Shown here piece by piece: positions 1 to 61,350 of a DNA stretch of 64,000 bases (its first letter is position 1; each line of letters starts with the position of its first letter). The notes under the pieces were generated by a model that was not told the DNA's origin, searched no databases, and was given only the letters and a program-made list of their open reading frames with translations. The DNA comes from Apteryx mantelli (taxonomy: Eukaryota; Chordata; Aves; Apterygiformes; Apterygidae), in NCBI RefSeq assembly GCF_036417845.1, contig NC_089979.1:24059958-24123957 (forward strand). Direction: 5' to 3'. The translations under genes were made by a program, and so were the position numbers.

Positions 1-48
1 TGATGACTGGGATCACAAAATCTACCAATTTGAAGGAAAAACATCAAG
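1..48 (+). CDS. Cadherin exon, 3' end only (window edge)
   Basis: Reads DDWDHKIYQFEGKTS plus two bases, then the donor AAG|GTATTT. Its phase (two bases over) fits the acceptor at 872, where one base completes an Arg codon before YFMLNDNSGLLTI. Together these make the end of a cadherin-like fold, with the common 'D.SGLLTI..GTPPG.Y' pattern. The start lies outside the window. Confidence 0.75.
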
Positions 49-871
49 GTATTTGGAAAGAAAAATGGAAGTTGTGTGAAATGAAAGAGAACCTTTCCCC
101 CTCCAAAAAATGTAGACCGTATTTAAACTATCTTTTTTTGGAGACAAGTGTGCAAAAACATTTGTTGATTAGAAGTTTGTGTGTAGCTCTCCAAAAGCCC
201 TCCTGAGTATGGTACCACAATAAATACTGCTGTATGCCAAACTTATCCGTTCCCTGCTGCTCAATGGGCCAGTGTTTTTTGATGTGCCTTGTCTGCTATA
301 ACACCACTTCAAATGCCTTGTTTGCAGTCATATCTGTAGGCAATATCAGTGAGCCGCTACAGAAAAAAAACCACACTAATTTCCATCCTCTCTCTTACAA
401 GCTCCTGGAGAGTTGGTATTGCTCAGTCAGCACTATTTTTAAGACCTTACTTGTACTGGATGTGTGTTGGCTGGATTGTGAGGAGAGCTGGGATGTACAT
501 GTGCCATTCAGAGGTTTTGACAGAGGTGGGTTATGCCTAGTGTGAGTCGCTCTCAGTGATGTATCTAAACTAGGAGTTTGCACTGTTTCCAAGGGAAGGG
601 TGTGGCTAGTAACCTGAGTCTTGCTAGCCAGTTTCTATGGCATTAGAGCAGGTAGAAACCTTCTCTATATACTGGTGTGGAGTCGCTTGGTGCCAAAAGA
701 ATACAAGTATAACCAAGTTTTATTCTGCCTTGTCCCTTTGTGAGGGAACGTATCAGCTGTCTCTGACAGCTTTCGCAAAATGAAGTGGATCAGAAAAACA
801 TCAATGATAATTATTACATCTTAGCTCTTTAACTTCTCGTATCTTTTTCCTTGCCTTAACTCCTGTTACAG

Positions 872-1054
872 GTACTTTATGCTTAATGATAACTCAGGAT
901 TGCTGACTATTAAAGAAGGAACCCCACCAGGAGCATACAATATAAGAGTTAGTCATTGATGGTGTCTGGCCAGATGTGGTCTCAACCGTAAAGGTTACAG
1001 TGAAGGAAATCAAAGGTGATGCCCTTTATAATGCTGGATCTATAAGAATAAAAG
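872..1054 (+). pseudogene. Cadherin membrane-proximal exon with a one-base frameshift
   Basis: The acceptor is TTACAG at 871 and the donor AAAG|GTAAGC. The first half reads YFMLNDNSGLLTIKEGTPPG and on to NIRV, then hits TGA at 957-959. The second half is open in the next frame, starting V-I-D-G-V-W-P-D at 952 and running to the donor. One surplus base near 951 explains the break. Removing it gives the phase (one base over) that the next exon at 1669 requires, so the ancestral exon was in frame. Confidence 0.8.
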
Positions 1055-1668
1055 GTAAGCAATGTGATGAAGTATATTTAGGATTGTAATGCTGAAACCT
1101 ACCTCTTTAACATTATTGCTCTGTTACTTAGAATTTTAATGCTGCTAAACTTATGATAAGAGTTAATAGCTTTCTACATGATGGTTTGAAAATGCGTCTT
1201 TGTTTGCATGGTCTTCTGATGCTGTATGTGGAGGCACATCCAGGAAGGAAAAAGGCAGCAGGAAATGCTAGTTTGATGCAAAAGTCACAAACGTGAAATT
1301 TCTACACCAACTTTGCAACAAAACAGCAGTTAATGTTTTTAAAAAAAATTATTTGAACAATCTGCCTGAAATTCATTGAATTACTTCAATCTTTGTGGAA
1401 AAGTAAAATCTTCTTAAACATGGTTCTGATTTAAAAGAATGAAAAAAAGACAAACACATAAGAGTCAAAAAGTTTCAGAACAAAAATCCTATGGCAGAAT
1501 CCAGCATGGAAAATTTCAGAGCCTGAAAATGAAAACATTGGTGAATTTGCAGCTGAGTGCTTTTTCTGCAGCGTTAATATTTTGTTCTGTGGTGCTCCTC
1601 TCTTTTATTGCTACAACAGTTGTAGCCTCCAACATATGTGTTTGTCAGGATTTAAAATTCTGTTACAG

Positions 1669-1901
1669 ATATCACTCCAGAGGAGTTCATATCCCAGTTC
1701 CCTGAAAAAGAGAGTAAATACTACCAAATGAAGAAGCTGCTTTCAGAAGTCATATCAGCCCAACTGGAAAATGTTCATATTTTCAGTGTATTAAAAAGCC
1801 CAAGTCGAACTCCAGGGGTTGACGTTTGGTTTGCAGTTTATGGTCCACCCTATTATAAGGCAGAAAAACTAAACGGCAATGTAGCAGTATCTAGAGCACA
1901 G
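1669..1901 (+). CDS. Cadherin membrane-proximal region exon
   Basis: This exon is 233 bp. It starts with two bases completing Asp, then reads ITPEEFISQFPEKES through WFAVYGPPYYKAEKL to AVSRAQ, ending on a codon boundary at CAG|GTAAGT. The acceptor is TTACAG. It is intact and matches the region between the last cadherin repeat and the first EGF in type III cadherins. Confidence 0.75.
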
Positions 1902-2929
1902 GTAAGTGTGTTTAATTCATATGAAAACACACCATCTTGTTATTGTGTCTTTTCAAACAATATCCATTGACTAGTGAACATGCATGTTTAGAATGACTGA
2001 TTGAGGGGGTTGTATGTGAGAAAAATGGACAATTTTATTCAGTAAAGTCAAATATTCCTTTAGTACTTTGATTAAAAGTTTCAAATATGAATGTTTTAAA
2101 AGCCAGCCTGTAAATGCATGTTGAGTCACACAGACACACTGAGCTAACTTTCAGGGATGTGAACATGTTTTTTTCTGTTGACTGTAAAAACCGGTTTAAA
2201 GGATGTGTTTGGCTGTTGCCTTTCTACATGCTGTCTTAATGTTTCGATTTATTTTCTTCTACACAGAAATGTTCTGTAAGCGAAACTCATAAGCCTGTGT
2301 TCAGTCAAAAGTTCCAGCTTTATGATTGAAGAAGGCAAAGTAGTAAAATAACCATTCCGCAGTAGAAAAACAGGCTGGAAATGTAAATTGAAAATTTAGT
2401 AAGGTTCCTGCCCCTTGTGCAAAAAAAGTTCTGCTAATAGCTAAACTACTTGCTCTGTTTGAAATGTGTCTATGGGTACACATAGATTGGAATACAGTAG
2501 TGTTTAAAATCATTACCTGCAGTAATAACTGACTGTTGCCAGAAAAGGTATTTCTGCGTTGCACAATGCCTGCCTTTCTTTCCCAAGCTTTTTAAGACAA
2601 AAGTCTAAATTAAAAACAGAACCCAGATCCTACATAGATAATCTCCCAAAGCTAAAAGTAATTAATTTATTCACTCTACTTATAATTAATTCCCCAATAT
2701 TTTTGTCTTTGAAATATTCACTCACACTATAACTGACTTAGGCTGAGGCTTTTGGCATAGCAGATACCAGGCTGACCTGCCTTTGGCTGGTTAGAGTGAG
2801 GTAGATGTTGGAAAGAAGTGGTACAGCGACCAGTTTTGAGAATAAATTAAGGCCATAGCTGTCATTTATAATCCATGAGCTTCCTCTCTGTGGAAAAGTC
2901 AGATGAATACAAATAATTGTTCTCCACAG

Positions 2930-3207
2930 CTGGAAAACATCTTGGATATAAATATCACCCAAATTGGCATTGATGAATGTGTGACTGCAAATTGCACTCA
3001 TAGCACTGGATGCATCAGCAAGTATGAACAGAGTCCTGTGCCCGCAATAACCATGGCTGGAAGCATTTCACTGGTGTCAGTGACAGTCCTGAGTAGTGCC
3101 CAGTGCAGCTGTGCAGCTCAGGAGAGCCCTCATCTCTCCTGCTCTTCGTACCGGACAAATCCTTGTCTCAATGGCGGCTCATGTGTGGATACTGATTTGG
3201 GCTACAG
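2930..3207 (+). CDS. Cadherin exon entering the first EGF module
   Basis: The acceptor is TCTCCACAG. The exon reads IDECVTANCTHSTGCIS, then a stretch ending SCSSYRTNPCLNGGSCVDTD, which is the start of an EGF domain (CxxNPCLNGGSC pattern). The donor TACAG|GTTGGT leaves two bases of an Arg codon, completed by the exon at 4683. It is open throughout. Confidence 0.8.
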
Positions 3208-4682
3208 GTTGGTAAAGCTTTGTCTGGCGTACAGGCAAAACGCTTCAAACGCCATCTGTAAGGAGGAGGATGGGAAGTGTGAGGAGATGGCATTGCGTGT
3301 CTTCTCACTGTGGTGATCTGGGTTTTGTTGTACTTCACGTGGGTCTTGCAAACAAATCTCTATTTTCAACCAGCTACTTAAGTTCGTTCATAGTCTCCAG
3401 GAGAGCCTTGGGAGGTTTGCAGGCTCCACTGGTTCCCTTAATGGCACCCTGCAAAATGTTCATGTTCTGTGCAGCCTACATTAATATTATTAAACACTTC
3501 AACTGTGTCACTTACTAGCCTCTTCCCCATGTTCCTTGCTTCCTCTTTTTTTCTCCAAAAAGGGCACCTCATAGACAAAAATAGTATGAAGATGAAACCA
3601 TGATGGGATTGTAGTAGCTCGGTATGAGCCTGGCACCCTTTTAGAAAGCATACCCTAAGCATGTTTGCTTCAGAACACACATCCCAACATAGGAGGGCAG
3701 AAACAGCTACCCAGAAGCTCTTGAGAACCCTTGATGGGGGTGATAGGACTCAGACTGAAGCTGCAGAAGTCCTGGATATGGTAAAGGTCTAAATGAGTCC
3801 CAAATTACTGCTCAGATGTAACCAACCAGGGAAGTTTAGCTGCCTGGAAATATTGTAACGCTTGACAGTGTTCTGCCACCTATCATTTGCTCAACTTTGA
3901 GACTTTTGCTCCATTTTCGGTATTTTTATGAGTAATCTTTTCTTCCCTGTCCTACTCCTCTTATTCTGCTCTCACTAGGTACTGGCAAACTGTGGGAAAT
4001 AGAAATAGGTGCCCAGCTGTTCTCCCTCTCTGTTCCCTTTCCCATTTCTGTTGCTCCTTTGGTTTCCCTCTTACAGTTTTTGTTATTGTCATGCTGTGAT
4101 TGCTCTTTGTTCATTCTTGAATCACTAGAGTGTTAACAAACAAAGAATGAACCCTGAACACCTATTTTTCCTAGTGTAAAGGAAATAAACCAGTAAGTGG
4201 CTTGCAATAAGAGTGAGATTATGAAGTTCTGTGACTGTCACCCCTTTGCTCGCTTTTTCTGCCAAACCAGAAAAGGTTTCTTTTGCCTTCTTGCACCCTT
4301 CCTTTGGTTTCCCTGTCAAGATTATAAAGTCTTTTTAACCAAGCTGGTAGCTAGGCCTAGTGAAATGTTGTTTTCTTCTTTTGCTAAAGAGATCAGAGGT
4401 TTTCGTGTGCTTTCTATATTACAAAGGCTCAATTATTTATTCACAAAATTATTCTTACATAGACATAGTGTGATTTAGAACTAAAGCTAAACTGTGTTTG
4501 TACAAAGAAATCAATAGCAAACATTTTGTGACAGAGGTGCTTTGCTACTGCTTGTTTAACTCATACTAGGGTCTGGGCAACATGGGCTCCTGTGGTTGGA
4601 GTGGGGAGTTCTGCTGTAGGAAAAGCCCTTAGTGAGTTCTGCTTGGATGGTGGATTTTTTTTTTTTTTTTTTTTTTGCACAG

Positions 4683-4897
4683 ATGCAAATGTCCTGCAAA
4701 TTTCCATGGACCAGATTGCCAGCAGACAAAACACAGCTTCAGAGGCCATGGTTATGCCTGATTCCCTCCTCTTAAGCCTTGCTTTGAGAGCCGTATCTCC
4801 TTAGAGTTTATCACTGAAGTGGCTGATGGCCTTCTGTTGTACCAGGGACCAGTAGCACGAGGGCAGCCTGGAGAAATGGAAAATTTCCTTGCATTAG
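4683..4897 (+). pseudogene. EGF end and laminin-G 1 start, with in-frame TGA
   Basis: The acceptor is GCACAG behind a 22-T tract. The exon reads CKCPANFHGPDCQQTKHSF (EGF end), then RGHGYA, a TGA at 4759-4761, then FPPLKPCFESRISLEFITEV and ADGLLLYQGPV, the first beta strands of laminin-G. Related proteins have Trp at this site (GYAWFPP), so the change is TGG to TGA. Both splice phases still match the neighbours. Confidence 0.85.
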
Positions 4898-5196
4898 GTT
4901 AAAAACTTAAGAAATATTTGTTCTTTGTGTTTGTCTGACTTGGGATTCTACTTACAGTTAATAGGTTTTTAAAATGGCTTGGAAAGTTATTCTCAAAAAA
5001 TAAGCAAAATGCAGAATAATTTGCCAGGATTCCCAGGCTGTATCTAGTCACTGTACTAGAAGCGGCATTTTTTTTAATTAAGTGTCTTCCACTGTCTAAA
5101 GAACTCCTCAAACTGAAATCTACCTGTGACATTGAGTTCACCTGGCTTAGTATGGGAATATGGCTAATGCTTATCCAATAAGTCTTTTCTTTGCAG

Positions 5197-5324
5197 AGCT
5201 CTTGGGTGGTGTCCCATCACTGACTGTGAGACACAGCTCTGGTGACCTTTTCCTGCAGCTGTCACGAAAAGTTAACGTTGCAGATTGCCACTGGCATAAT
5301 ATAAAAATTATACATGATGGAAAG
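5197..5324 (+). CDS. Cadherin laminin-G 1 middle exon, ending in a GC splice donor
   Basis: Two bases complete Glu, then LLGGVPSLTVRHSSGDLFLQ and, a little later, WHNIKIIHDGK, the W-H-x-I-x-I-x-x-D-G pattern of laminin-G. The donor is AAG|GCAAGT, a consensus GC-AG donor; reading through it would break the frame. It joins in phase 0 to the exon at 6072. Confidence 0.8.
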
Positions 5325-6071
5325 GCAAGTGTAAACAGAGACAATCCTGGGGAAGCACTATTTCATGTACCTAGTTATCCCTTCAGAGTACTTTCTCATT
5401 TCTTTAGAGCTCGCTCTTCAACCATTTCATCACTGCAGCAATGCGAATTAATGTTTGTCAGCTCAGATTTCCCCTTAGTCTTGAGGCAGTGAATCAGGAC
5501 AAGGCCTTGAGCAGTCTGATCTAACTTTGAAGTGAGCCCTGCTTTTTTTTTGTTTAATGGTCTTCTCTAGTGGTTAGACCACAGACTTGTGATAGCTCAG
5601 AGAGCTAAAGGCAAATTTGTTCCTGGACTGATGGAGTGAAATGTCCTTTATTTCTGTGAGCAGGAAACTCTGGCCCACCAAGTGAGTTTAGACAGATACA
5701 CTTCTGTATAGGGGGAATTTCTTGCTAATACAATACTGGTGAAGGCATCTGCTAGGTTGCCCCTTCCTCTACCCGATAAGACAAGTTGAGGGTATGTCAG
5801 GATCTGGGATGGGGAGCCTGCAGAAAACATCAAGAAAATCCTGTTTTCTCTTTACTGTGCCAGTGACTTGGCCTGCTCTGGTAGGTTCCTTAGTTATATG
5901 CCATGTGCAGTAACTTTCCAGATTAGTATGTGGTAGTGTTTTATTATTTTAATAAACTTCCCTACCTTTTAATTTCTAGTTACTATGCCCCCCCTTCTGC
6001 TTACTGAAATAAAATATGTAATTAAAATATATCACTATCTCCTGATGCAATTCAGTAATGCCTTTCTCCAG

Positions 6072-6199
6072 AAAGTGAAGCTGATTCTTGACCACTGCAT
6101 AAATGTCTCAGTCAGAGACAGTAGCAGTATCACTAAGAAGATCTCCCAAATGGATTTGACTGTCTGTGAAGCCTCTGAAGAGACTATGGGAACTCAGAG
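6072..6199 (+). CDS. Cadherin laminin-G 1 exon
   Basis: Reads KVKLILDHCINVSVRD to TMGTQ plus two bases, with donor CAGAG|GTAAGA. LxxDHC is the usual strand in type III cadherin laminin-G 1. It is intact, with phases 0 and 2. Confidence 0.75.
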
Positions 6200-6342
6200 G
6201 TAAGAAACATGAACAACATGAACTGGAAAAATAAGCACTGAAAAGAGCTAAGAAAAAAGGGGAGGGGAGATGAGGAAAAAAAATCAGCCAAGTTTTTGTA
6301 TTTACGTTCCACTAATTCTTTCTTTCCCTGTTTTCCCTTCAG

Positions 6343-6475
6343 CATGGGTGGGCTCTTCAGTGTTCACCAGCCCCTGCAGTTGGGTGGAGTTAAGAAGACT
6401 TTGCCTTATCACAATTCACAAAAGCACTTTAGAGGTTTTGTTGGCTGTGTACGCAGTGTCATTGTTGATAGTAAG
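6343..6475 (+). CDS. Cadherin laminin-G 1 C-terminal exon
   Basis: Reads MGGLFSVHQPLQLGGVKKTL then HFRGFVGCVRSVIVDSK. F-x-G-C-x-R is the closing laminin-G strand. It is intact, with acceptor CCTTCAG and donor AAG|GTAGGG, ending in phase 0. Confidence 0.8.
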
Positions 6476-6555
6476 GTAGGGCTGCTAAGACCAATCTTGG
6501 GTTTACTGATGCTAACTGTAGACACCTGATGTGGTGCTTTTGTTGCCTGTTCTAG

Positions 6556-6736
6556 GTCTATGATTTAGAGCACCCTGCAGAGTCCTTTAACAGCGCTCCC
6601 GGGTGTGTCCTGATGGATGAAACGTGTAAGAGTGCTGGGGTGGCCTCCTGTGGTGTTCATGGCAAGTGTGTTGGTGGTTGGGATTTCTTTCGCTGTGACT
6701 GTTCCCCAGGATATGCTGGACCAGCATGTGACAAAG
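6556..6736 (+). CDS. Cadherin second EGF exon
   Basis: Begins VYDLEHPAESFNSAPGC, then an EGF module with cysteines in CKSAGVASCGVHGKC and CDCSPGYAGPAC spacing. It is intact. It ends one base into a codon at AAAG|GTACTG, and the exon at 9692 fits that phase. Confidence 0.8.
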
Positions 6737-7139
6737 GTACTGTAAGTTCTGGGAGGAAATTAATGGTGAGAATCTGTGGGAACAGGCATCAAAACATACT
6801 GCTGTAAACTTGCCAGGACTTTGAACTAAGTAGCTCAATACCGTGCTGCACTCTGGGTGTGATTTAGACCTGCATCAATGTAAAGATCCTTCTAACTCTT
6901 GTTGAATAAAGATAATGTCACAGATGAGGCTCTTGATGAGGACTGCTTTACTTTGTGGAGGAAGCAAGTGGTCCGATGGGTTGTTTTGTATTGTTTTTAC
7001 ATCATCTTATTTGTCAGTAATGAAAGATGAAACATTTTGCGTTGGTATTCTTCCTCTGGCCATACAGATCATAAAATGAAATTTAATGAATGTGGTACTA
7101 TTTGTCATCCTGTGGTGGTCGTAAGAGTGACTAAATGCC

Positions 7140-7310
7140 AGCTTGGGACGTGGCAGATCTTGGTAGGTTCTCTCTGTGAAACCTGGGGACACATCCCTCA
7201 ATTCCCCCAGGCACAGTTTTCCATCTGTAAAAGGAGGATAATTGCACTTCCCTCTGTCCCTGAAGTGAACTCAAACTTGTGAAACACCTTTAGACCACGG
7301 CAGAGGGTTC
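7140..7310 (+). mobile_element. Possible MIR/CORE-type SINE relic
   Basis: The stretch ACAGTTTTCCATCTGTAAAA, GGAGGATAATTGCACTTCC and, later, GTGAAACACCTTTAGA has the order and wording of the 3' half of MIR-like SINEs. It lies in the cadherin intron 6737-9691, where I see no exon. Confidence 0.4.
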
Positions 7311-9691
7311 ATGTAAGGACGTAATACCAGGCTAGCTCCAGCAAATGTGTTATCCTGTACAAAATCAGCAGGAAACATGCATCAGAGAACAAAAACTTGC
7401 AAACAAGTGGATAATGAAAACAAGTGGATAATGAAAACCTCAGAGGCATTGTTAAAAAGTGCAAAATTTTAGCAATTCAGAAATTTAAGAAATACATTCT
7501 TTGATGTGTAAAGTGCTCCCAGCAGCCCAGGGCCATGTTCAGGACACAGGGGCATACACTTGAAGTTGGCTCTGTTCTTCCTAATGCAGTACATTCAGCA
7601 ACTCTCCACACAGACTCATAGCCACTGCTCTGAGGTACAAGTGAAATCAGATGTGCGCTACAGTAGTATGGGGACTTTACCTGCCCTGTGTCAGTCTTCT
7701 CCATCTACATACAAGGTACAAATGATGGGGTTGGTTGTAACAGTCTGTAATGAACACTTGTGCCCCATAAAATTTGGGGCTTTGTGCAGTGTTTGAAGAG
7801 AATTAGCCCCCTCAGTTCTGTAATTTGAATGAACTACAGACAAAGACGAGCAGCAGTGATCAGTTGGAAAGGGCCATGTGCCAGCTATTGTTGAATCAAT
7901 GTGTTGTGATCAGTAGACATGGCTGGTTGTGTGTTGTACATATCTTTTCAACTTAATGTGCTTAGTTTTCCTTCTTGTAGAGGGAGGAATAATACCTTAT
8001 ACAAGGAGCCATACTCACTCCTCCTTTCTCCATCTCTCACACAAGACTTAAAAGGTGACATTAAATTACTCAGAGAGAGCTCTGTCCAGTGTGGTGAGGA
8101 TTGAGAGGACCAGAATCATAATTGGCATACTCTGAGCCTGGAGCTTTCATTGTTTAAAGTGTTTATAGTGGCCACCTAAGTGGTTACTATTAGCTCAGTT
8201 ACTTGTACTGATGTTTTGCAGACAAGTGATAATGGTCTATAAAAGTCTGCCTAGCTTTAAGTCTTTTGTTTTGCATTTTCTTGGGGCTCTGGTTCACAAG
8301 CCCAACTGCTTATTTGGAACAGCTGTATTGGTTCCTACCCTACACCTTTGTGGTGGAAACCAGTTGCTCAGGAACCAATTAATCCACAAATCGCATCCTA
8401 ATGTATAAGGAGAACTTGGAGTAGTTCCAATTTCTTCTAATAAGTTGGGCTGTAAAATGCTGGTGTTCAGCTGATGCTTTATGAATGGCTGAGCCTTGCT
8501 TGCAGGAAGGAGCAGACAGCTGGGGACAGGAATCACTAGAACATCCCAAGAAAATTCCTCTCTTCTCATCAGCTAGAGCCTGTAGATGCAGAGATACTGA
8601 ACAAAAAAGAACAGTGGGCAAGGAAGAGTGTAAGGAGGTTAGCTAGAGGAGAATAAAATATGCTTTAAGAAAGAAAAGAGATAGGAAAAAGAGTGAGAGG
8701 AAGAGGGAGTGCAGAGATTAAGTCTTTTGGTCATTTGATATTTCATGTCTTGGGACCCAGACTAAGTGTCCCAGCACCTGTTGGGCACTTTTTGGACTTC
8801 TGCTTATGTGACACTGACCTCTGATTAGTTGTTGGTAACCCAGTTTTCTTCCTGTCCAGTCACTGCATGACTAGTTTGGAGTATATCTTTATTTGGTAAG
8901 AAGTTGTTCCTTTTTCTGAATAAATTGTGCCCGGAACAAGCAGATCTAGGATTGCTGTCAGAGAATGAGGCCAAAATGAGTATCTGCTGCACAAGAGCAC
9001 CAGGATCTTTTTGGTTTAGTGATATTTGGTTTACTGAAAGGGTGTAGAGCATCTTCATCCAGTTCTCTGCTGGACAACTCTCAGATGGAGTCCCCAGGAT
9101 GATGGGGAAGAGTGAATTTCAGTGTGTTTTCCTTAGTTAAGATAATAAACACTGACTTAATCTTTCTATAAACAAAAATTCTGTATTCTGACTTTTGACT
9201 CTGTGCCTGCCGCAGGGCTTTCTTTTGTTCCAACTGAAATGGAAAGAAAGGTGCATATTTTCTAGCAGTAAAGGTTATTAACCACAGGACTAAACTACTG
9301 AAGGAAATGTTAGATTCTAAGTCTTTTTGTCTTCAGATCAAAGCCAAATACTTTACTGGAAGATATGTTTCAGTTTAAAAAAAAAAAGTTATTGGGCTAG
9401 TGTAGGAGTGATTGGGTGAATGTGCAGCTTGTGGCAGGCAGAATATTAGAGACATTGTCAAATCTCCATGTATGCCTAAAGTCTATATTCTTGGTTTGTT
9501 CTTTTTCTCTTAATTCCCTTGGGGGGGATTTCCTGTTGGAGGCAGTGGGTGCTTCCCATGACATTTCATTACGTTAGGGTTTCTTAATAGCTAAAATTCT
9601 GACATTCGGAATTGGTAAGTTCTTAAACTGTGGAGATCTGTGGGAGCAGTAAGTACTGAGGATTTCCTGTTTGTTTGTGTGTTGTGTTTAG

Positions 9692-9783
9692 CACTTCCAG
9701 AATGGGCTTTTGGAAGGGACAGCTGGATCCATTATGAGCTGAGAAGCATTCTCAGTGCCCACAGCACTCACATCCAGCTGTGA
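9692..9783 (+). pseudogene. Laminin-G 2 N-terminal exon, decayed 3' half
   Basis: The acceptor TTTAG is followed by two bases completing Ala, then LPEWAFGRDSWIHYELRSIL and SAHSTHIQL, the start of the second laminin-G domain. TGA follows immediately at 9781-9783, with TAA seven codons-worth later. A one-base shift gives only MSQSSAIREKNAFSD before another stop, with no convincing donor. About 20 residues are expected before the next exon at 10458, so the distal half appears eroded or frameshifted. Confidence 0.65.
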
Positions 9784-10457
9784 TGTCACAGAGTAGTGCA
9801 ATAAGAGAAAAAAATGCATTTTCTGATTAAAGACAACTATTCTTCAGTGTAATAAAGACTAAGCATTTTTCATATGAGAATAACTGCTCTCATTTGTGTT
9901 GTCCTTCTCAGAAATAAAGCACAGCCAGAATAGTGTTTCTTGGCTGCAAGAGAATGTAGTAATAGCTTTTTGTAGCGCAAATTCTAGTTGCAAAAAGTGC
10001 AGGTCAGTGCATGTGATACATGTGGAGTGGGGAAGAGTGTTTTGTCTTGCTTGCCTTTCCCCTTTGCTTCTGTCTCTGGCTGTAAAACTTCTGCCTATGT
10101 TTTTTGTTTCTGTTGAAAAAAGCCATGTGGATTATTTTAGCCAAGTAGAGGCTAATTATTCCAACTATAATTGGAGGGTCAGCTAGGAAGACTTAGAGAT
10201 AGAGATCAATAGGGAGGAGACTGATGAAAAATCTCATCTTACTTAAAAAGAGGCCTGTAGGGAAGAAAACTGGTAATTCCTAGACCTGCAGTTTGTTCTT
10301 GTAACTTTTATCTTGAAATAAAGCACCTTATTGCACCTTTAAAAACAAGAGTGCCATTTGTATTTAAAACTGAGGTTCATTTCTTGAGGCAGCCCCCGTC
10401 ATAACATTCAGATGTGCATTTCTATTGTGAGTAAAGGTCTCTATCGTCGTCTTTTAG

Positions 10458-10722
10458 GTGTTTGGCGGTTCCTTCAGTGTAAACTTCAGCTTGGAGGACA
10501 AAAATTACTCTCTGAGGATGAGCACCTTATGTATAAACAACGGCCAGTGGGTTCTGCTGACCATGGAGCGCTACAACAATGAATTTACCCTGTGTGTTAA
10601 TGATGGGGGAGGTGATCAAGAAGTGACCTCTGTCTTGGGTACAAACAGATGGTTTGAAATGGATTGGACAAGCATTGTGCTAGGAAACCGCCTTCCCAAC
10701 CATTCAGAGAGTGATTTCCAAG
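10458..10722 (+). CDS. Cadherin laminin-G 2 C-terminal exon
   Basis: Reads VFGGSFSVNFSLEDKNYSLR, then CINNGQWVLLTMERYNNEF and so on to NHSESDFQ plus one base, donor CAAG|GTAAGT. The G-Q-W-x-x-L-x-x-x-R pattern is laminin-G. The exon is open, but its one-base overhang does not fit the next recognised exon at 12410. Confidence 0.75.
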
Positions 10723-11380
10723 GTAAGTGATATGATGAGTTTGCAAAAGGAGGGAGTTAAAATCTACAAGTGGAATCTTCAGAGATATTGAAGAGTCTAA
10801 AATCCAAGTAAGAATTCCCATGGAGACTGCTGTGCCCATCAAAGCCCACCTCCTCTACTGGGGAATTCAGGGCTAATATTCTGTTCTCCATTTGCCATTA
10901 TATTTAGTCCTAGTGAAGATGTGAGATTTCCTGTAAATATAGCACTTCAGGTTTTTATTTCACATGCTAGAGGCCCCCAGTGGGGAAGTCATGCTGGGAT
11001 CTTCACTCCCTTTTTGATTGGGAAAGGCTTAAGGAACAGACACAACATTTTCTGATAGGAGGGTAAAGATTTACAAGACATTTCATAGCTCTCCTTCTGT
11101 TTCATCCAGTGGGGGTGCTGGGACTTTGAGACTGTGGCTCAACAGAAGGCAACTTAATCTAGATTAATTTAATGAGGGTGTTCTGGTTCATAGCACAGTT
11201 CTGCTAAATCATTGCATTGGCACATCCAAGCTGTCCTGGAGAAGCACTGTAGATCTGTAAGTCAACCAGGGCACCCAGACACGTGTCCTGTAGCTCTTCT
11301 AAAGTAAAACTGATAAGGAGTATAAGGTCCTTTTTAAGTTTTTCAGCAGTGCAGCATGCTTTAAGGTCTCGTGCGTATGT

Positions 11381-11419
11381 GTATAAAATAAAGAGCTTGT
11401 TGTATAAAATAAAGAGCTT
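11381..11419. repeat. Two-copy 18-bp direct repeat, period 21
   Basis: GTATAAAATAAAGAGCTT occurs at 11381-11398 and again at 11402-11419, in the gap of the cadherin locus where an exon is missing. Confidence 0.85.
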
Positions 11420-12409
11420 TTCAAAATTAGACTGTCACAAAACCGGTTTCTAAAACTGGCTGCCCAAGATCAGAACCAGAGCCCCGCAGCCTGATACTGT
11501 GTTCAGTAAGTTTCTTGGAGAAGACCCAACATTTGACAAAAATTACTAACATATTAAAATATGCAAATGAAAATCCAGGCATTTTTGTTCAAAAAAGCAA
11601 TCATACAAGACTGGGAGAAGGTGCTTGTGCCTCTTAAATTCCTCCAGGTCAACCAGAATTAGATTAACTTGTGTCGTGGCTGGAGATAGGAATGTCATTT
11701 ACTTTTGGCACTTCTGAGGCCTACTGAATCATTAGTGAAAGAGGCTGTGAGATGGGAGAGTCTTAAACATGCCTCAGGACACTCCTCTCTTCAGTCCACT
11801 TGTGAAAGAACAATTGAAAGGGACTCTTCATTTATTCACTAGTACCAAAGTTTCTGCTCCTTGGAGAGCAGAAAGCAGATCTTGTACTCCTCAGAGTATT
11901 CCTGCATTGCCTCTCCAATTTCATATCAGAAGAAAACACTTTATTTGCAGGTTAAAGTCCTGAAAGACAAGATGGGTCATTCTCAGCAGGGCAATGACTT
12001 CTTTTTCCCAAAGGTCCAAATGAATGTTACCAAGCTTATACTAAGTGCTTGCTAGCCCTTTTTCCTTTGGTCTCAGTTATCCATTTCCTGTTAGGCCTTT
12101 CAGACCAATCTGTAAAAAGGGTTACTGCTCAGAAGCTGAGAGATCCTTTTTTTTAAGGAAGGAGTGAAACTTTTTCATATGTTACCTGGACAGGGAAAGC
12201 AGAACATATGTTCACATTTTCCTAAGCCTACAAGCTTGCTATGTTAGAGTTCACCTGTGTTTCATGTTATCAATGTGGATTTGTGATTTGCTTGAAAATA
12301 ATTGTTAGTTTTAAAGAAATAAATGAAAGCAACAAACTTCACACAAAGAAACACACAACTCCAGGTGCTTCTCCTGCCTAAAAAGTATCTTGTGCTTTCT
12401 TTTGTTCAG

Positions 12410-12663
12410 GTGTCCAGCTGGGAAAGTAGAAGTGACTGATAACCTTACAGGGCTCAGACATTGTACCTCATCACCTTGTGGACACTGGACCTGTAGAAAT
12501 GGGGGTAACTGTGTGGCCCAATCCCAAGACAAGACTATCTGCCAGTGCCCTGATGGTTACAAGGGAAGATGGTGTGAAATTAGCCAGGTGAAGGCAGGAA
12601 GACCAGTCGGACTCAGCTCTGGCTCTATTCTGGCAATCAGCATGTGCCTCCTAGTCTTCCTAG
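12410..12663 (+). CDS. Cadherin third EGF and transmembrane start exon
   Basis: One base completes a codon, then CPAGKVEVTDNLTGLRHC, an EGF module (CGHWTCRNGGNC, CQCPDGYKGRWC), and the transmembrane run GSILAISMCLLVFL, ending one base into a codon before GTAGGA. It is intact and fits the exon at 13612. Confidence 0.85.
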
Positions 12664-13611
12664 GTAGGAAAGCAAGTTTGTTGGCTTGTCTGTTTTTTTT
12701 TTTTTTCGTCTTGCACCTTCCTCCATTGAGTCAAGTCTGCTTTACTCCTTGGATACTGTGACCAGTGTTTCATCTTTTCTGGAGATCACCAGTTGGTGTT
12801 CATTTGAGGATGCTAAGAGACAGGCATCAGCACATGGTTACAGTTTATTTGCTTAAAGACAGTTCAAGCAAATTTAGAATTTCCCTCTTCCAGAATCACT
12901 TATTTTCGCTCCTTCTTAAATAGGGACTTTCCATCTGTGTGTGCAAATCTATGTGCATCCATTTTCATCTGAAACTTCCACCTGCCCTGAACCCTAACAT
13001 GAGTATTACATAGCACCTACAACGAGTATATGCTATTCACATATTAGGAAGGCAGAGAGCTTTCTCTAGAGAGTTTATGACCTCTATGGTTATGTGAATG
13101 AGGCAAGCCTCATTAAGAATGCAGGGCAAAAATAAATGTTCTGAATGTGTCCAGTTTTAGATGCACTTTGGTTGAAATAATAATATGATTGCCCGTTTCC
13201 CATATTGATAATGAAAAACTGCATACAAATCTCAGAATAGTAAAGATTCCAATGATTATATTACATTTGTAACCTTCATTAAAACGGTGTTTTACTTACT
13301 TTGGGTATCTTATTTACTTAGGATTGGTGAAAGGCCAGAGATTGGCCAAAATGCCTTCTATTTAAATGGATTCCTTTAGGTAAGTAAAATACCCTTTTAA
13401 TGAAGTTTATGATGTAATATATATATAGATGATTCTTTACCTTCCTGAAAATAACTTGTTTATACACTAACAATTATGCATTTCTTACCTGGGAATTTGC
13501 TTTTAAAATAAGAGTTGATTTTATATCTCAGGAGTCATATAACTATGTATTTGTCATATGTCATACTTTGTCGTATGTCATATAACAAATATGTATATTC
13601 ATTTTTTCCAG

Positions 13612-13766
13612 CTCTCTTGGTCTCCTACACAGTGTGGAGTCAGTGGGGAAGTTCAGGGTTTCGGAAAGGAGGAATTTACCACATTCCTGAAGAGCATGAA
13701 AGCTGGGAGGATGTTAGAGAAAACATCTTCAATTATAATGAAGGAGGAGGAGGAGAACGTGACCAG
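13612..13766 (+). CDS. Cadherin transmembrane end and juxtamembrane cytoplasmic exon
   Basis: Reads LLVSYTVWSQWGSSGFRKGG then IYHIPEEHESWEDVRENIFN and YNEGGGGERDQ, ending in phase 0 at CAG|GTATGA. The stretch N-Y-N-E-G-G-G-E-x-D-Q is a hallmark of the classical cadherin juxtamembrane region. It is intact. Confidence 0.9.
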
Positions 13767-14202
13767 GTATGATGCAGCTTCAGTTCAGTCTTTGCAAACC
13801 AAACATCTCCTTACCTTCCTTTTCTAGACCTTTATTTAACTTTTTTTATTGCCTTCACCCAATTGTTTGCATTTTTTTTAACATAAAAACTATTGAGTAT
13901 GAGGCTTTTATTACAATCTGATCTGTACTTTTCACACTGGTCAAATGAGGCCACCTTTTAGGGGGCCACCCTGGGGACAGCATAGTACTTTGTACATAGC
14001 ATTCTTGGTTTAGCTCAAGACTCTCAGTATTTAAAGGGATGTGGTATGATCTGAACTTGGCCCTCTGAACTAGCCCCACTCTCCTCCTCAGTTAGTAGAA
14101 GACTCACAGAATCTGTTTTTGTGTTGCATTGGTTTTTAAAATATTTTTGGGAACATGTTTTCTTTCATGTTTTTTTCTGATATTTGTATTCTTTTTTTCC
14201 AG

Positions 14203-14604
14203 AATGCATATGATATAGATGAACTGAAGAAACCTGTCCAAAACATTCCCCACTTCTCCTTGAGGGCAGCTGCTCTGCGCTCCATGACACCCAACGGCCC
14301 AAAGAGAGACTCGCTGCCAAAACGTGCACGTCAAAAACAGTCAACAACAGCTGTTACCAGTGTTCCAGATTTCAAGGAATATGTGTCTCAAATTGTCTGG
14401 GATGCAGACAATGATCTACGAAGTCTTCCAGCTGACACTATTCATCATTACTGCTTAGAAGGGCAATGCTCTCTAGCAGGGTGCCTTAGTTCCTTAGACT
14501 CCGTTAGTGGTGATGAAGATCTAAATTATGATTGCCTCCAAGAGTGGGGGCCAAAGTTTGACAGGCTTAAAGAACCCTATGAGCTCTCAAATGAACATTT
14601 GTGA
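14203..14604 (+). CDS. Cadherin catenin-binding tail, last coding exon
   Basis: Begins NAYDIDELKKPVQ and ends with TGA at 14602-14604. The distal part carries DNDLRSLPADTIHHYCLEGQ, then LSSLDSVSGDEDLNYDCLQE and WGPKFDRLKEPYEL, the beta-catenin-binding block of classical cadherins. All 133 codons are open, in contrast to the broken extracellular exons. This intactness could mean recent loss, or selection on a partial product. Confidence 0.9.
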   Translation, partial: NAYDIDELKKPVQNIPHFSLRAAALRSMTPNGPKRDSLPKRARQKQSTTAVTSVPDFKEYVSQIVWDADNDLRSLPADTIHHYCLEGQCSLAGCLSSLDSVSGDEDLNYDCLQEWGPKFDRLKEPYELSNEHL

Positions 14605-17900: not shown

Positions 17901-18514
17901 AACTCACCATGATTTTTTTTCCTCATACGCTTTCCTCATCTCTTCCTTTACCCACCCTCCCCAAATGCCTGCTTTCTGCCAAAAGTAATTCAAAAGACAT
18001 TCTAATCGGAACCTGGGTGAAACAACGTTATTTTTCTTTTTCATCAAATTTTCAGGAAGCGGAGGGGTCATTCTAATTTTATAGCTGAAAAAATGCCTGA
18101 ATTAAGGTCACCTATGTACTTTCATTTTGTCTCCTAGGGCAAATATATTACAATGAATTGTGACCATGCATTTATAGATACTGTTTTCACACTTTTAATT
18201 CCTCGACTTAGAAAGTTTACATTATTGATGTTTAGCTTCACGGAGCTTTCCAACAAACTACTTCAGCATGAAGGAAGAGTTTTAGTAGTGATCCTTTCAG
18301 CTACTAGGGTATCTAAAGTGCTGCCAAGTGCTGGAGATAAAATCTCTCTGGCAATAAGCTGAGGATACCTTTAATGACCCAAACTTATTACTATATGTTT
18401 TATCTTCTGACACAAGGTGATGAAAGCCTCATCTATTGAAGCCAAAGGGGAAGGAGTTGTGAAGATTTTGCCTTATCTCTAGAGATGCATCTTTAATCTC
18501 ATAGCAAGGCATGT

Positions 18515-18697
18515 GAGGGTGGTTGAACACAGAAACAGGTTGCCCAGAGAGGTTGTGAAGTCTCCATCCTTGGAGATACTCAGAACCCAACTGGACACAG
18601 TCCTGGGCAACCTGCTTTAGCTGACACTGCTTGAGCAGGGGCATTGGACCAGGTGGTCTCCAAAGACCTCTTCCAACCCCAGCTATTCTATGATTCT
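18515..18697 (+). mobile_element. CR1 LINE 3' fragment
   Basis: Contains the diagnostic CR1 3' segments CAGGTTGCCCAGAGAGGTTG, a CTTGGAGATACTCAGAACCC block, GGACCAGGTGGTCTCC and the terminus ATTCTATGATTCT. The 5' end fades around 18515. It is 5'-truncated, as most CR1 copies are, and carries no intact reverse transcriptase. Confidence 0.9.
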
Positions 18698-19799
18698 TCC
18701 AGGAGAAAGAGATGCACTGCTTTCGGGATCACAGATACTTTGGTTTCCCTGCAATTACTGTTCCCATTCATTTGGGGAGATGTTATACTAGAATACTGGC
18801 ACAGTATGATATTTTTCATCTAAGTAATCGCAGGTCTTCTCATGGATGATTACTGGACTGAACCTCTTTGCGTCAGTTGACCTCAAGTCATTCTATATAT
18901 GTTTCTTTGTAGTGGTTGAGTGTTCAACCTCCAAAGGGGAAATTAGTATTATCTTACGGTAGTGGGATCATATGTCCCTACCTTTTTGGAAGAGAATTTT
19001 GCTGATTTAAACTGGACTGCTGCAATTAGTAATGCTAAAAGCTTTCTTAAGTAACCTGCTCTGGAGTTTCTACTACCTCAGGTAGATTCATTTTTATACC
19101 AAATTAATCTGATCATTCTTTACTCTTTATTTCCCTCAGCACAAAGACCTGAGAGTGAGCACTTTTGTACATAAAACATCAACACTTTAGAAAAATACAT
19201 TTTCTTAACTTCCCTTCCTTTGTATGTGACAGGAAAGAAATGAGGAACTCTTTGGTTTTCTCTTGGCAGTCATTAAATGCATGCAGTCGACTCTCCTGAT
19301 CATTAGGATAGTAACACTGTTCAAATGCAGAACTTCACTGTTGGGTTTTGTTTCTTCACTACTGGAAGTGTGAATGTGGGAAACACTAAAAAACATGATC
19401 AAGGGGCTGAAGCAGGGCAGTAGGATTTGGCACACCTTAGCAGGACCATCTAGCTAGCAAGCTGTGAGTAAGTTACTTCACCCTTTCCCTCCAACTCAGT
19501 CTCCAAGATGGTTCCTGCTGTTTTTTTGCCATGTTGGTGAACCCCGCTCAGGTGGGCCCTGAAGGTCCATGACGCATAGTAAGTGTGGTGTTGTGGTCTT
19601 GCCCCTACCTGCCAGCAGTCGCCCCCCTGCCCTTCTGCTGCTGTGCCCGCGGCAGAGCCTGGTGGGAGGCTTGGCCAAGCCGCGGGAGCGCGCTGGCATC
19701 GCTGCAAGCGCTAAGCGCTCCATCCTGATCCTCTTCTCTAGCTGCCTGCTAGTCACTGCCAGCTGAAACGTCTATTTACCATGATTGACCTGAGACGCA

Positions 19800-20500
19800 G
19801 CAGGGGAAAGGAGGAAGGCAAGGCGATGTAAGGTGGCGGGGGCAAGGCGGGGAGGGGGCCTGCAGGGTGGCGAGGGCAGGGCGGCAGGAGGCACCGCTGC
19901 GGGCGGGGCTGGGCCTCCCGGCGCGGTAGTTGTGAGGACAGGCCCCCCTGGGGGAAAGCCCGGCCCCGGCCCCCACGGGCGCCATCTTGCCGCCCTACAC
20001 CGCCCGGCGGCGCCGCGCTGAGGGGTGGAGCCCTGCGCGGCCCCGGCCCCGCCGGCTCGGCTCGGCTCGGCGCGAGAGTGGCCGCCATCTTGTTGCGGCA
20101 GCTGGCCGCGCCGCGGGAGGGCGCGGCGGCGCTCGGCTCGGCGCGGCGGCGCAGCGATGAGCGCGGAAGCGGCGGACCGCGAGGCCGCCACGTCCAGCCG
20201 GCCCTGCACGCCGCCGCAGACCTCCTGGTTCGAGTTCCTGCTGGAGGAGGCGCTGCTGGAGCAGCACCTGCGGAAGCCCTCGCCCGGTGCGTGCGGCGCG
20301 GCCCCGGCGGCGGCCCCTGCCCCGCGGCGGCCCGGCGGCGCTCCCGGGCCCTCCCGCGGCCCCGGCGGGCGCAGCGCTCGCTCGTTGCCCGCCGGCCCCT
20401 GCGGCCCGAGCCCGCGTGCCGCGGCGTGACCTGGCTCGAAGGGCGGGCTGGGGGCGGGGGCCGGGGGTGAGGGTGCGGACTGGCCGTGGTCCGGGTGGGG
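19800..20500. promoter_or_regulatory. INTS8 CpG-island promoter with two YY1-type motifs
   Basis: Dense CpG sequence surrounds the first INTS8 exon. On the minus strand, CAAGATGGC motifs (YY1 consensus AAGATGGCGGC) lie at about 19978-19989 and 20081-20092, the second with the full GCCGCCATCTTG. YY1 sites just downstream of the start site are common in TATA-less housekeeping promoters. I see no TATA box. The transcription start is not determined. Confidence 0.65.
20157..20286 (+). CDS. INTS8: INTS8 exon 1, start and PP2A-binding motif
   Basis: ATG at 20157 is the first in-frame start in the known N-terminus. The exon encodes [14 protein letters not shown] then [20 protein letters not shown], including the WFEF motif. 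It ends one base into Asp at CCCG|GTGCGT. It is extremely GC-rich, unlike the later exons, because it lies inside the CpG island. Confidence 0.97.
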
Positions 20501-50700: not shown

Positions 50701-53700
50701 GCGCAGCACATTTCAGCAATAGCCTTGCGGTTTATCCTGTAGCTGGCCTCACTTGCTAAGAGCCTCCTTTCCATGCAAGCTTGGGAAACCTGTCCTTTTC
50801 CAGCAGAGCACAAACAGTGACTTCAGCCCAGCCATGGCCTTTGTTGATACAATGTTGATACAATGAACATGAAGGTTTCATTGTTTTGCAGAAAGAGGGA
50901 CGTACTAGAGATGTTTCATCTGTAAGCAAGTAAACCGCATTAAAACACAAGGCTCAGCTGACACTCATTCAGCCAGCCCTTACAAGTATAGTGAAGTTAT
51001 TACCTTTAACATAATAAGTTCCATTCTTATTATATCATCTTCACTGCAAGCACCATCAGTGACATATGCAAATTCTTGAATTTTAGGAGCATAGATTTCC
51101 TTTCAAGAGAGAAGCAGAAAAAAATGTCAAGATCAGAGTGGCTTAGGATTCCAGGAAAGCTTGAGAAGATACTGGCAAATACTTCTAGTCCATAACATTT
51201 CTTATGCTAGAATAGTGTTTTCCTGGTTATATATAGTGACTTGAAAACTTATAGGATAGGAGATATTGAAAACTGTTGTGTAACATGTGACAGATTTATT
51301 GCAACCCGTTTAGCTTTGGGGGAAATAAGTATTGACCAAACAATCAGAACAACTTTTCGCTCATTTTGCTTTCTACTCAGCTGTTCTATTTGGTGTAAAA
51401 GCATACACCATCCCATTCTTGGAGCACATCGCTGTATTGGAAAAGGCTTGCTGATAAGAATTTAGGCACAATGTCAGTTAGCACTGGCATACTCACATAG
51501 ATAAAAATAACTGGAAAAAGATGGGAGAAAAATCCCACTGTATCTGGCAAAGCCATGGCACAGAGACAGTTAACAAGAAGTTTCTGCTGACCTAGTTCAC
51601 ACCAGTTCAGGCCATGTTTAGGTGTGTTGGCAGAAAAGCCAACTTGCCAGCAGAACTGCTTCTGCCCCAACTGGCTCCACAGCCAGGCTGTGCCACACGC
51701 TTCCTTAGGACAGATGCATGCTTATAGGGTCAGCACCTTGCTTTTGGTGCACCAGCTAGATCAAGGGTTTTGAAAGTATTAAGAATTAATATTCCAAATT
51801 TTCATCTCAGTCGAGCCTATCGTGCATCGGGTATTCAGAGGAAACACATGAAAATATGCTGTTGCCTCATAACTAGTGTGCAATGTAATGCATCACCACC
51901 AATGCATTCATTTCATTACTTTTGAAAGGAAACAACTCCACTAAACTGGTTTAGAGGGGTATCAGCTTGTTGAACAGGCAGTCTGAGACTTAGGCTTGCT
52001 TTTGTTTAAGTCTCACCCCCAATTCCTGAGATTGTTTGCCAATTGCTGTATATTTGGAAAAAGACAAAACAGAACTACTCCTAGCACATCTGCATACCTT
52101 TTCAGTTTATGTGGTCTCCTTCTCCGCTGCTGAGGAAAGGGAGGACAAAGACTACACTCCAAGAGATTGATTTATTAACAACTGTTTTGCTGAAGGAAAA
52201 GACTAAAGTTTCCCCTTCTGGCCTTCAGTATTATACGTACACCACCAGGTTCAAGAGATTCATACAGAAGAAACAAACATTATCATTGTCTTTTTAGTTA
52301 TTTCAAACTTACTACCCTCCTCCTGTAACAGAGCTTCTTACCTCAAGTTTGGAGGCAATGAATAACGAGGTAATTCCTATGAGCTGAAGCATACTCTTGT
52401 TAATGTTCTTTTGTGTCAACATGAATCTATCAAAAAAGTCTTGAGCTAGGTAGAAGGTTTCCCTGTGGAGTGCATACACCTCGCATACCTAAAACAGGAG
52501 AAAAAAATAAATGTATTCTGCACTGCATTCCATTATAAAAATTGATGCATGCATATCGGAGTATTCGCATTTTAACAGCAAACCATTGTATGCACAATTT
52601 TATCTTTTGCACAGATATAAACCATCACATATCTAAATGTGTTAGGTAGCACTGAATAATATGGAACTGGGAGAAGTATTTCTCACACTCCCACCCAAAA
52701 CACCAGTTATCCATGGGGCAGTAACATATTTCCAAAGTGCACATTTCCAAGGGCACAGAGAATCTAAATATCATCCAATTTCCTTAAAATGAGTACCAGC
52801 AAATAGCCAGAAGTTTTCCAACAAAATAAGAAAATGAAAAATGAAAATAAAAACAAGCCAAGCACTCCTTCGATTCATCAAAAATACTTTGGGCTTAAAC
52901 TTTAAGCTGTATCTTTCCCATATTCCAAGGGGAACAGCCATCTACCTCCAGCAGCAGGTTTCCTTGGCAGGGGTCTTTAAAAAATTTGCACAGAATCAAA
53001 GTGGTTCCAATTCAGTTCAGCAAAAAAGGAAAGGAGACTTCTCTGACCTGGAAATCTTATACAGGAGCCCTACTTTCTCCTTTTATCTCTAATTGAATTA
53101 GGGCAGATCTACCACAACTCCACCTTATCAATGACTTTGCATCCCTTCCACAAGTAGAAGTTAGATATCTAGAAATTACTTTAAATCTACTTAAGAGTCA
53201 GTAGGGGTAAAAAATATCCAATGTATAGTTCCCAAGCAGGTCTGAGCTTCCTGCTCCACTTGACTATTTCACTTGCATGCAAAGTCAGAATAATATCACT
53301 ACTTCTAGCTATTTCATAAGAGAAGGCTGAAAGCCTGTTTGTGGATTACATCCCTTCCCGGTGTTCAAAAATGCAGCTAGCTGACAATAATGTCACAGCT
53401 CATTCTTTTAGAGCTGATCTAATATATGTCAACTAATGTGCTAACATGACATGATTAACTACTGCTCCAAACAAGACTCAGAACTAAAAAAAGGTAGAGA
53501 CCAGAGTCACCCATGAATAAGCGAGTACTGTTTCTATAAAAGTATACGTGCCAAATGTAAATAATGATGCCTGGTCATGTTTAGAAAAGTATTAGTTATA
53601 AAGTCACATAAGACAAAATTAAGAGCTACTGGAGGATTCTTAAAGTTGCCATGATTTTATTCCACTGTGGCATGTAGTGTTACTGAACTAGACAATGATA

Positions 53701-59786: not shown

Positions 59787-60039
59787 CTGGACCAGAGAAA
59801 CAACATAAACTCGGTTCAGGCCTCCGCAGAAAGTTATGACACAGCAGGACGCTCAGTCCGAGGGCGACCTACGCAGCGGGCGAGGCAGCGCGATTTGCCC
59901 AACCGTTAAATGGAAGAACACAAGCGTTTTACTGGCGCAAAGACCCCCAGGGCACGCAGCGCCTCTGGGTCGCAGTCACACACGGCCCCGCACCCCGTAG
60001 CGCCCCGTCGGAGACCGGCCCGTTAACCGGGGGGGGAGG

Positions 60040-60180
60040 GGGGGGCGGGGCGCAGCCGGGCGCCCCACGGCGGCCCCCCCGGGGCAGCCCCGCACCTGCG
60101 GGGGGGGGGGGGGGCACAGCCGGGCGCCCCACGCCGCGGCCCCCCCCGAGCCGCCCCCACACCTGACGGGGGGGGGCGGC
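60040..60180. repeat. Diverged tandem duplication with G-runs in CCNE2 intron 1
   Basis: CAGCCGGGCGCCCCACG occurs near 60053 and again near 60117, each followed by a C-run, a GCACCTG- or ACACCTGA-type motif and a long G-run, giving units of about 64 bp. The plus strand has strong G-quadruplex potential. Confidence 0.6.
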
Positions 60181-61116
60181 GCCGCCCGCGCTCCGCGGCC
60201 CCGCGCGGCCGGTTCCGCGCCAATTTGCAGAGAGCGCGGAGGCGGCGCCCGCGCCGCGCCGCGCCGGGCCAAGGGGGCCGCCCGGGCCAGCCGGCCGCCG
60301 GCGGGCCCTGCGGGTGGGGGGGGGGGGGGCACCGCCGCCCCCCTCCCCCGGGGCGCGGCAGCACCCACGGCCGGGCCCCCCCGCTCCCGCCCTGAGGCGG
60401 CCGCGGCCCCTCTCCGGCCGGGGGGGGGGGTGTCCCGCCAGGTCCCCCCCGGGGCGCCTCGGGGGGCTCGGCAGCGGGCCGGGGCGAGACCCCGCCGGGG
60501 CGGCGATGGCCAAACGGGGTCAGCCCGCCAACGGCCCGGCCCGGCGCCCCCGCCCCCACCGCGCTCCCTCCAAAACCCGAGCGGGGGGGGGGGTTGGCCC
60601 GGCCCCCCTGCGCCCCCCCGGGGCACCCCGCCGGCGGCAGCGGCGCGGGGGGGGCGCTATGGCGGGCTCCCGCCTACCCCCCCCTCCCGCTGCCCCGCTC
60701 CCGCCGGCAGGGAGCGGCCCGCCCGGCCCCCGGCGCGCCCCCCCCCCCCGGCGCCCCCCCCCCCCCCCGGCGCGCCCCCGTCCCGGGGCGGGAGGGCTCC
60801 GGCAGGGCCGGATGGGCCCCGCTCGGCCGGGCCCCCCCCGCCTCTCCTCAGCCGCTCTCCCTCCAAAACGGTGCCCGGGCGGCATCCCGCCTCGCCGCTC
60901 CCGCGCGCCGCCGCGCATCGCCCCCTCCCCCCCGGCCACCCCCCTCACACCGGCACCGCGTCCGCCAGCCGGCGGCACCGGCACCACCGCCATCGCCCCG
61001 CCGGTGCCGGGACCGCCGCCCCGGCTCCCGCCGCCCCCAGCGCCGCCGCCCGCTCCCAGGGGGAAGAGGGGCCGGGGAAGGGGGGCGCCCCGCCCGCGGC
61101 GCCCCGCGCACCTCAC

Positions 61117-61174
61117 CGCCCGCCGCTGCCCGGGCCGCGCTGCTCAGCTGGCGCCGGCGCCAAGCGCCTATATA
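61117..61174 (-). promoter_or_regulatory. CCNE2: Probable CCNE2 core promoter and non-coding exon 1
   Basis: On the minus strand, CTATATAGG at 61167-61174 is followed by CGCTTGGCGCCGGCGCCAG, giving TTGGCGCC E2F-like elements just downstream of a TATA box. Counting about 30 bp puts the start near 61144. A donor GGCG|GTGAGG at 61117/61116 would end a short non-coding exon that splices to the acceptor before 59786. Human CCNE2 also has a non-coding first exon and is E2F-regulated. The CTATATAG core is palindromic, so direction rests on context. Confidence 0.6.
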
Positions 61175-61316
61175 GCGCGGGCCGGGCGCGGCGCTGCGCA
61201 TGTGCGAGCGCCGCCGACAGCTCCCCCGCCCGCCATCCGCCCGCCGCGCGCCCGCCTCGCCCCGGCACCGCCCCCTCGCCCGGCGCCCGCCGGCCAGCGG
61301 CCCCCGCCGCGCCCGC

Positions 61317-61350
61317 CCGGCCCGGCCCGGCCCGGCCCCGGCCCCGGCCG
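61317..61350. repeat. (CCCGG)n-like short tandem repeat
   Basis: Runs of GGCCC units, turning into CCCCGG units, upstream of the CCNE2 promoter. Confidence 0.7.

Follow-up and report, generated by a model that had tools for sequence, protein, structure and literature searches.

Introduction

Going by the title of a 2004 paper, Tanabe et al. reportedly described Hz-cadherin of the chicken, a cadherin with the type III domain complex that is expressed in retinal horizontal cells; mammals, to our knowledge, are without type III cadherins. In the excerpts available, published work regards the type III cadherins as the ancestral classical cadherins (PMC8325961) and speaks of a horizontal cell cadherin for nonmammalian animals (PMC2811116). 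Here we describe a cadherin gene at the left end of a stretch of 64,000 nucleotides from Apteryx mantelli (the window, which is all of the DNA originally analysed), taken from contig NC_089979.1, referred to below as C2. With high confidence we regard it as a unitary pseudogene, the remains of a gene for a type III (nonchordate-type) classical cadherin that is most likely orthologous to chicken Hz-cadherin.

Organization of the C2 gene and its predicted product

The gene has 31 recognisable exons totalling 7,338 nt at C2:24,032,896-24,074,561. The window, whose position 1 is C2:24,059,958, holds just the final third, and the remainder extends 27 kb upstream, where positions are given as negative numbers. 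A scan of the window and of 100 kb upstream with a home-made profile of extracellular cadherin (EC) repeats, followed by reading by eye, places 17 exons between -27061 and -2051. An AG acceptor precedes all 31 exons, and the start of exon U6 is set six bases up, at -19785, after comparison with a paralogue on contig C10 (see below). Exon phases were carried forward by hand, with a shift introduced within the exon at each of the three frameshifts, and fit at every testable junction except 10722/12410; the junction after the truncated exon I falls outside this check.

Reading through the lesions gives a product of 2,448 codons, with Pfam matches to Cadherin (E 2.9e-134 and 4.8e-56), Laminin_G_2 (E 6.2e-22) and EGF (E 2.1e-10). 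About 15 EC-like units are counted by eye, and PF00028 recovers nine plus three separate stretches that each pass alone. Pfam finds EGF units and a single LamG stretch; the second, LamG2, is recognised by eye, is broken, and lies partly within a missing exon. The NC domain matches Ig_Shg (PF24811, E 1e-20) at residues 538-680 of the second part of the product, and is above cut-off on the DNA as well. The catenin-binding tail matches PF01049 (E 1.7e-18) and the E-cadherin tail of 1i7w (E 5.5e-13). Compared with solved structures, the second half of the product scores highest against CELSR1 (8vy2, E 9.1e-121), as expected for EC repeats together with EGF and LamG units; the raw frame of window positions 1-3000 gives no match in the PDB. 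The combination of an NC domain with a classical tail sets the product apart from CELSR, FAT and the type I and II cadherins, and the predicted protein is thus a type III classical cadherin.

All of the exons within the window are on the forward strand. The 3' part of exon U18 (-45 to 48; C2:24059912-24060005) occupies positions 1-48 and belongs to the last EC repeat, the end of which is encoded by the frameshifted exon A (872-1054). Exons B (1669-1901) and C (2930-3207) have open frames and share the PF24811 match, B carrying NC (DE-cadherin Ig-like) sequence and C the end of that domain and the first EGF. Exon D (4683-4897) contains the end of this EGF and the start of LamG1, and has a weak donor (GTTAAA). 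LamG1 continues through exons E (5197-5324), F (6072-6199) and G (6343-6475) to exon H (6556-6736), which also contains the second EGF. The start and middle of LamG2, both assigned by eye, are in exons I (9692-9780) and J (10458-10722). In the interval from 10723 to 12409, across which the phase passes from 1 to 2, at least one exon is missing, which by inference encoded the end of LamG2 and the start of the next EGF. Exon K (12410-12663) then encodes EGF, juxtamembrane sequence and the first half of the transmembrane (TM) segment, exon L (13612-13766) the rest of the TM segment and the juxtamembrane cytoplasmic region, and exon M (14203-14604) the catenin-binding cytoplasmic tail with the native stop. 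The intron after exon E is of the GC-AG type with an otherwise good donor (GCAAGT, 5325-5330), and the GC is probably ancestral rather than a lesion.

The original prediction, a type III cadherin beside INTS8, is borne out by the Pfam matches to EC, NC, LamG, EGF and tail, with INTS8 beginning at 20157. Its count of fourteen is correct once the exon at the window's edge (-45 to 48) is added to A-M; the interval it gave is incomplete, 17 exons lying upstream.

Inactivating lesions

Ten clear lesions are distributed over ~42 kb: four nonsense codons, three frameshifts, a dead splice donor, a truncated exon and a lost exon. Each of the nonsense codons is a TGA. Those at -2405 and at 4759-4761 in exon D correspond to Trp codons in the C10 paralogue, that at -2336 corresponds to Pro, and that at -26252 has no paralogue counterpart. 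The frameshift in exon U6 (~-19745) reflects ~8 extra bases relative to the paralogue, and that in exon A (~951, within 950-952) two bases fewer; the frameshift in exon U7 (~-19257) has no counterpart. The donor of exon U17 at -2050 reads AT, and the matching C10 exon keeps an ordinary GT there. Exon I ends abruptly after HIQL at 9780, with a stop and no donor. A further exon must be missing between exons J and K because J leaves one overhanging base and K needs two. Nothing recognisable is present in 10723-12409, and translated C2 introns compared with the C10 locus yield nothing convincing for either this exon or the sequence missing from the end of exon I. The paralogue backs five of the ten lesions, namely the TGA codons at -2405 and 4759, the U6 and A frameshifts, and the U17 donor. 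Recoding or A-to-I editing, considered as all four nonsense codons are TGA, was set aside given the frameshifts, the dead donor and the lost exon.

Donors were scored with a weight matrix. Three are doubtful (-18558, a GC donor, 2.0; -8901, 0.9; 4898, 1.5 log2 units), and the other 25 score 3.8 to 12.6, not counting U17, whose donor is dead, and the truncated exon I. We also searched ordered subsets of the recognised exons, joined at native splice sites and starting at U1 (a test confined to U1 starts and recognised sites), for paths free of stops. The longest such path to the native stop joins 14 out of 31 exons and retains 2,930 of 7,338 nt (40%). It omits U17, the NC-domain exon B and, together with exon K, one half of the TM segment. 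Its length is unchanged if U17 is allowed to splice, and falls to 2,615 nt if the weak exons U8 and U13 are omitted.

From the four nonsense codons among 7,326 sites, under four mutation models, the neutral divergence since loss is 1.5-1.8% (joint 95% limits 0.4-4.5%). Taking 1.9e-9 per site per year as the rate for birds, the rough age is ~8-9 million years (2-24), which presumes neutral decay starting from an intact gene. The number of nonsense codons is in keeping with a recent loss, although the limits are wide.

The ancestral product would have been a single-pass homophilic adhesion receptor with ~15 EC repeats followed by NC, EGF and LamG domains, and a tail linking it to actin via catenins; adhesion is the general function of the cadherin family. 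Purifying selection may have been lost a few million years ago, after which four nonsense codons, three frameshifts, a dead donor, a truncated exon and a lost exon would have built up neutrally, leaving a genome that presumably lacks a working type III cadherin.

The four faults originally reported in the window (the frameshift near 951, the TGA at 4759-4761, exon I broken at 9780, and the missing exon at 10722/12410) are all present, and the description of a young pseudogene in a bird agrees with ten lesions over ~42 kb and a nonsense count that fits a recent loss. The statement that splice sites and the other exons are well kept stands in part, and fails for the upstream lesions, the dead donor at -2050 and the three poor donors. 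The suggestion of a partly decayed gene caught in the course of being lost does not hold, the gene being thoroughly dead already. The present analysis adds the upstream two thirds of the gene, in which six more clear lesions lie, a rough estimate of the age, and a paralogue that is dead as well.

A second type III cadherin locus on C10

A whole-genome protein search with the C2 NC/EGF exons identifies a second, collinear type III cadherin locus on C10. Of the 31 exons, 23 can be matched there in order, from 12,826,443 to ~12,865,240, at ~33-70% identity, the matches to F and G being weak. The search of C10:12,770,001-12,890,000 revealed no match to U1-U5, U7, I or K, and first exons farther upstream would escape it. 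There are at least seven nonsense codons (in exons U9, U11, U14, U17, C, E and H) and at least six frameshifts (in U13, U15, U17, which has two, C and M), counted by eye over ~1,800 aligned codons and excluding stops in the start of U11, in F and in M, and the broken frame of G. The C10 paralogue is thus also a pseudogene. Its lesion density is 2.5-fold that of the C2 gene (95% range 0.94-7.5, p 0.067), a range that includes no difference; together with the lost exons this suggests, short of proof, an earlier death, and the C10 copy probably died before the C2 copy.

A Dpy19 gene (C10:12,875,145-12,899,134) lies 3' of the C10 cadherin on the opposite strand, and a cyclin E-like gene is present at C10:14,397,856, 1.5 Mb from the cadherin. 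Because Dpy19, a type III cadherin and cyclin E are found together on both C2 and C10, the two regions appear to be duplicated blocks, which would most simply stem from the early vertebrate genome duplications. We note that the C2 Dpy19 gene is 5' of the cadherin and on the same strand, an arrangement differing from that on C10, so that one block must have been rearranged after duplication.

Searches for other copies

The genome searched comprises 1.50 Gb in 408 contigs, and the searches score best candidates alone, such that a copy could have been missed. PF24811 gives one match above cut-off, which is the C2 locus; it missed the decayed C10 copy, and so this search cannot be called exhaustive. 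There are 21 matches to PF01049, two of them the type III loci and the other 19 lying in clusters on C2 at 48-86 Mb (11 matches), on C10 at 1.5-10.7 Mb (six) and on C18 (two), which we take to be type I, type II and desmosomal cadherins. The search with the NC/EGF protein sequence gives 11 matches, with three in the C2 gene, three in the C10 copy and five elsewhere. Among these last, one on C12 and two on C21 resemble, by eye, what we presume to be CELSR and Crumbs genes, and those on C44 and at C2:146.9 Mb are short and EGF-like, with nothing clear on inspection. No intact type III cadherin was found in the NC/EGF, PF24811 or PF01049 searches. With two type III loci present and both broken, it is probably the whole class that has been lost and not one gene. 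It is likely that this bird lineage has lost the type III classical cadherins entirely, with both paralogues dead and that on C10 probably the earlier to go.

Neighbouring genes and orthology

The downstream neighbour of the C2 cadherin is INTS8, the first coding exon of which is at 20157-20286 on the forward strand, its end being placed by eye. Upstream of it, at 18490-18710, is a fragment that we take to be a CR1-like repeat, typical of birds. Farther along the window are cyclin E2-like exons on the reverse strand (52,342-52,503 and 54,796-54,876), and between these and the right end of the window is a GC-rich island (60001-62500) with long overlapping open frames, its GC content being 87% over 60001-61000 and 84% over 61001-62000. 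Just upstream of the cadherin is the C2 Dpy19 gene (C2:23,981,384-24,005,909), so that the locus sits between a Dpy19 gene and INTS8/cyclin E2.

By mammalian synteny the Dpy19 gene on C2 is presumably DPY19L4 and that on C10 DPY19L3, and we assume that INTS8 is on chicken chromosome 2 (GGA2). In the available part of a report on the scarlet macaw, a predicted orthologue of the cHz-cadherin of chicken (AAQ82055.1) and zebra finch (XP_002196034.1) is noted, and its four contigs align where expected on chromosome 2 of chicken and finch (GGA2/TGU2) (PMC3648530). The chicken Hz-cadherin transcript also appears in a trachea data set, according to an excerpt of PMC5424241. C2 is the equivalent of chromosome 2, in agreement with the place reported for cHz-cadherin. 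The C2 locus is most likely the orthologue of cHz-cadherin, now a young unitary pseudogene, and because an orthologue is reported in chicken, zebra finch and macaw, in the part of PMC3648530 available, the loss would be confined to some bird lineage.

Alternative explanations

Errors of sequencing or assembly could mimic a dead gene where the true gene is intact, and the pseudogene state is indeed read from the assembled genomic sequence alone, in which single-base errors are possible. The lesions are of different kinds, including substitutions, insertions and deletions, a splice-site change and a lost exon, and extend over 42 kb of a region in which the 164 kb of joined sequence that includes the window contains not one N. 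Moreover, 12 INTS8 exon pieces, picked by eye, are open and match human INTS8 in order over ~530 of 995 residues (PDB 7cun_H, E 1.7e-270). We therefore regard this explanation as extremely improbable. A shortened product could still be made by exon skipping or from an internal promoter, for example from the TM and catenin-binding exons, since no lesion falls in K, L or M, the tail is still recognised by PF01049, and an in-frame path from U1 to M retains 40% of the gene. However, this path needs 17 of 31 exons to be skipped together, with loss of an NC-domain exon and half of the TM segment. Ten random lesions over 7.3 kb would, by a hand estimate, spare these 0.8 kb in about three of ten cases, so that the cleanness of K, L and M is not evidence of selection, and a surviving short product seems very unlikely. 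Equally unlikely is that the C2 locus is an old duplicate relic, with a working type III cadherin elsewhere in the genome. A paralogue does exist on C10, PF24811 failed to detect that decayed copy, and the contigs could still lack a copy; yet the C10 copy is itself broken, the sole PF24811 match above cut-off is the C2 locus, and the 19 other PF01049 matches are, we take it, to type I, type II and desmosomal cadherins. We give this little chance.

Several points weigh against a unitary pseudogene orthologous to Hz-cadherin. Besides the possibility of single-base errors, half of the ten lesions lack backing from the paralogue: two TGA codons (-26252 and -2336), the frameshift in U7, the break in exon I and the exon lost between J and K. 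The Pro in the paralogue at -2336 offers no guide to the ancestral codon there. The lesion-free exons K, L and M could conceivably still be translated from a putative internal promoter. No first coding exon or exons were recognised upstream of -27061 in the frames inspected. The INTS8 pieces were chosen by eye as open frames, and this control consequently vouches for those stretches alone. Finally, orthology is based on the published chromosome match and presumed synteny, as opposed to an alignment to the chicken gene.

Comparison with known systems

Among the literature matches listed, there is no report of loss of the Hz-cadherin gene in a bird, and the excerpts that name Hz-cadherin mention neither a second gene nor such a loss. 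Lineage-specific gene loss is a familiar kind of event. If the reading is correct, this bird lineage is a natural knock-out of a protein thought to shape the retinal horizontal cells of birds, and the loss on C2 and C10 is a second loss of the type III class, beside that in mammals. The two are alike in that the whole class is absent, and differ in that the remains of the bird genes can still be read and the loss on C2 appears recent. A recent loss of a retinal gene lets one ask what replaces it in the wiring of horizontal cells, with intact relatives as controls, and the readable C10 relic shows that the bird line formerly possessed a pair of type III genes, located in duplicated blocks. The case should be of interest to researchers on cadherin evolution and on the retina.

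Chicken Hz-cadherin resembles the C2 gene in its type III domain complex and, from the available part of PMC3648530, its position on chromosome 2; it is expressed in retinal horizontal cells, whereas the C2 copy is unable to encode a full protein. Pn-cadherin of the fish Pundamilia is another type III cadherin of a vertebrate and also has numerous EC repeats, of which 14 have been placed; in the excerpt available it is treated as a full-length protein (PMC5473995), in contrast to the broken C2 copy. A parallel in kind of event is STK33 in neognaths, where a conserved gene has likewise been inactivated in a single group of birds; its loss dates back ~100 million years, according to the part of PMC4509753 available, and that of the C2 cadherin looks far younger.

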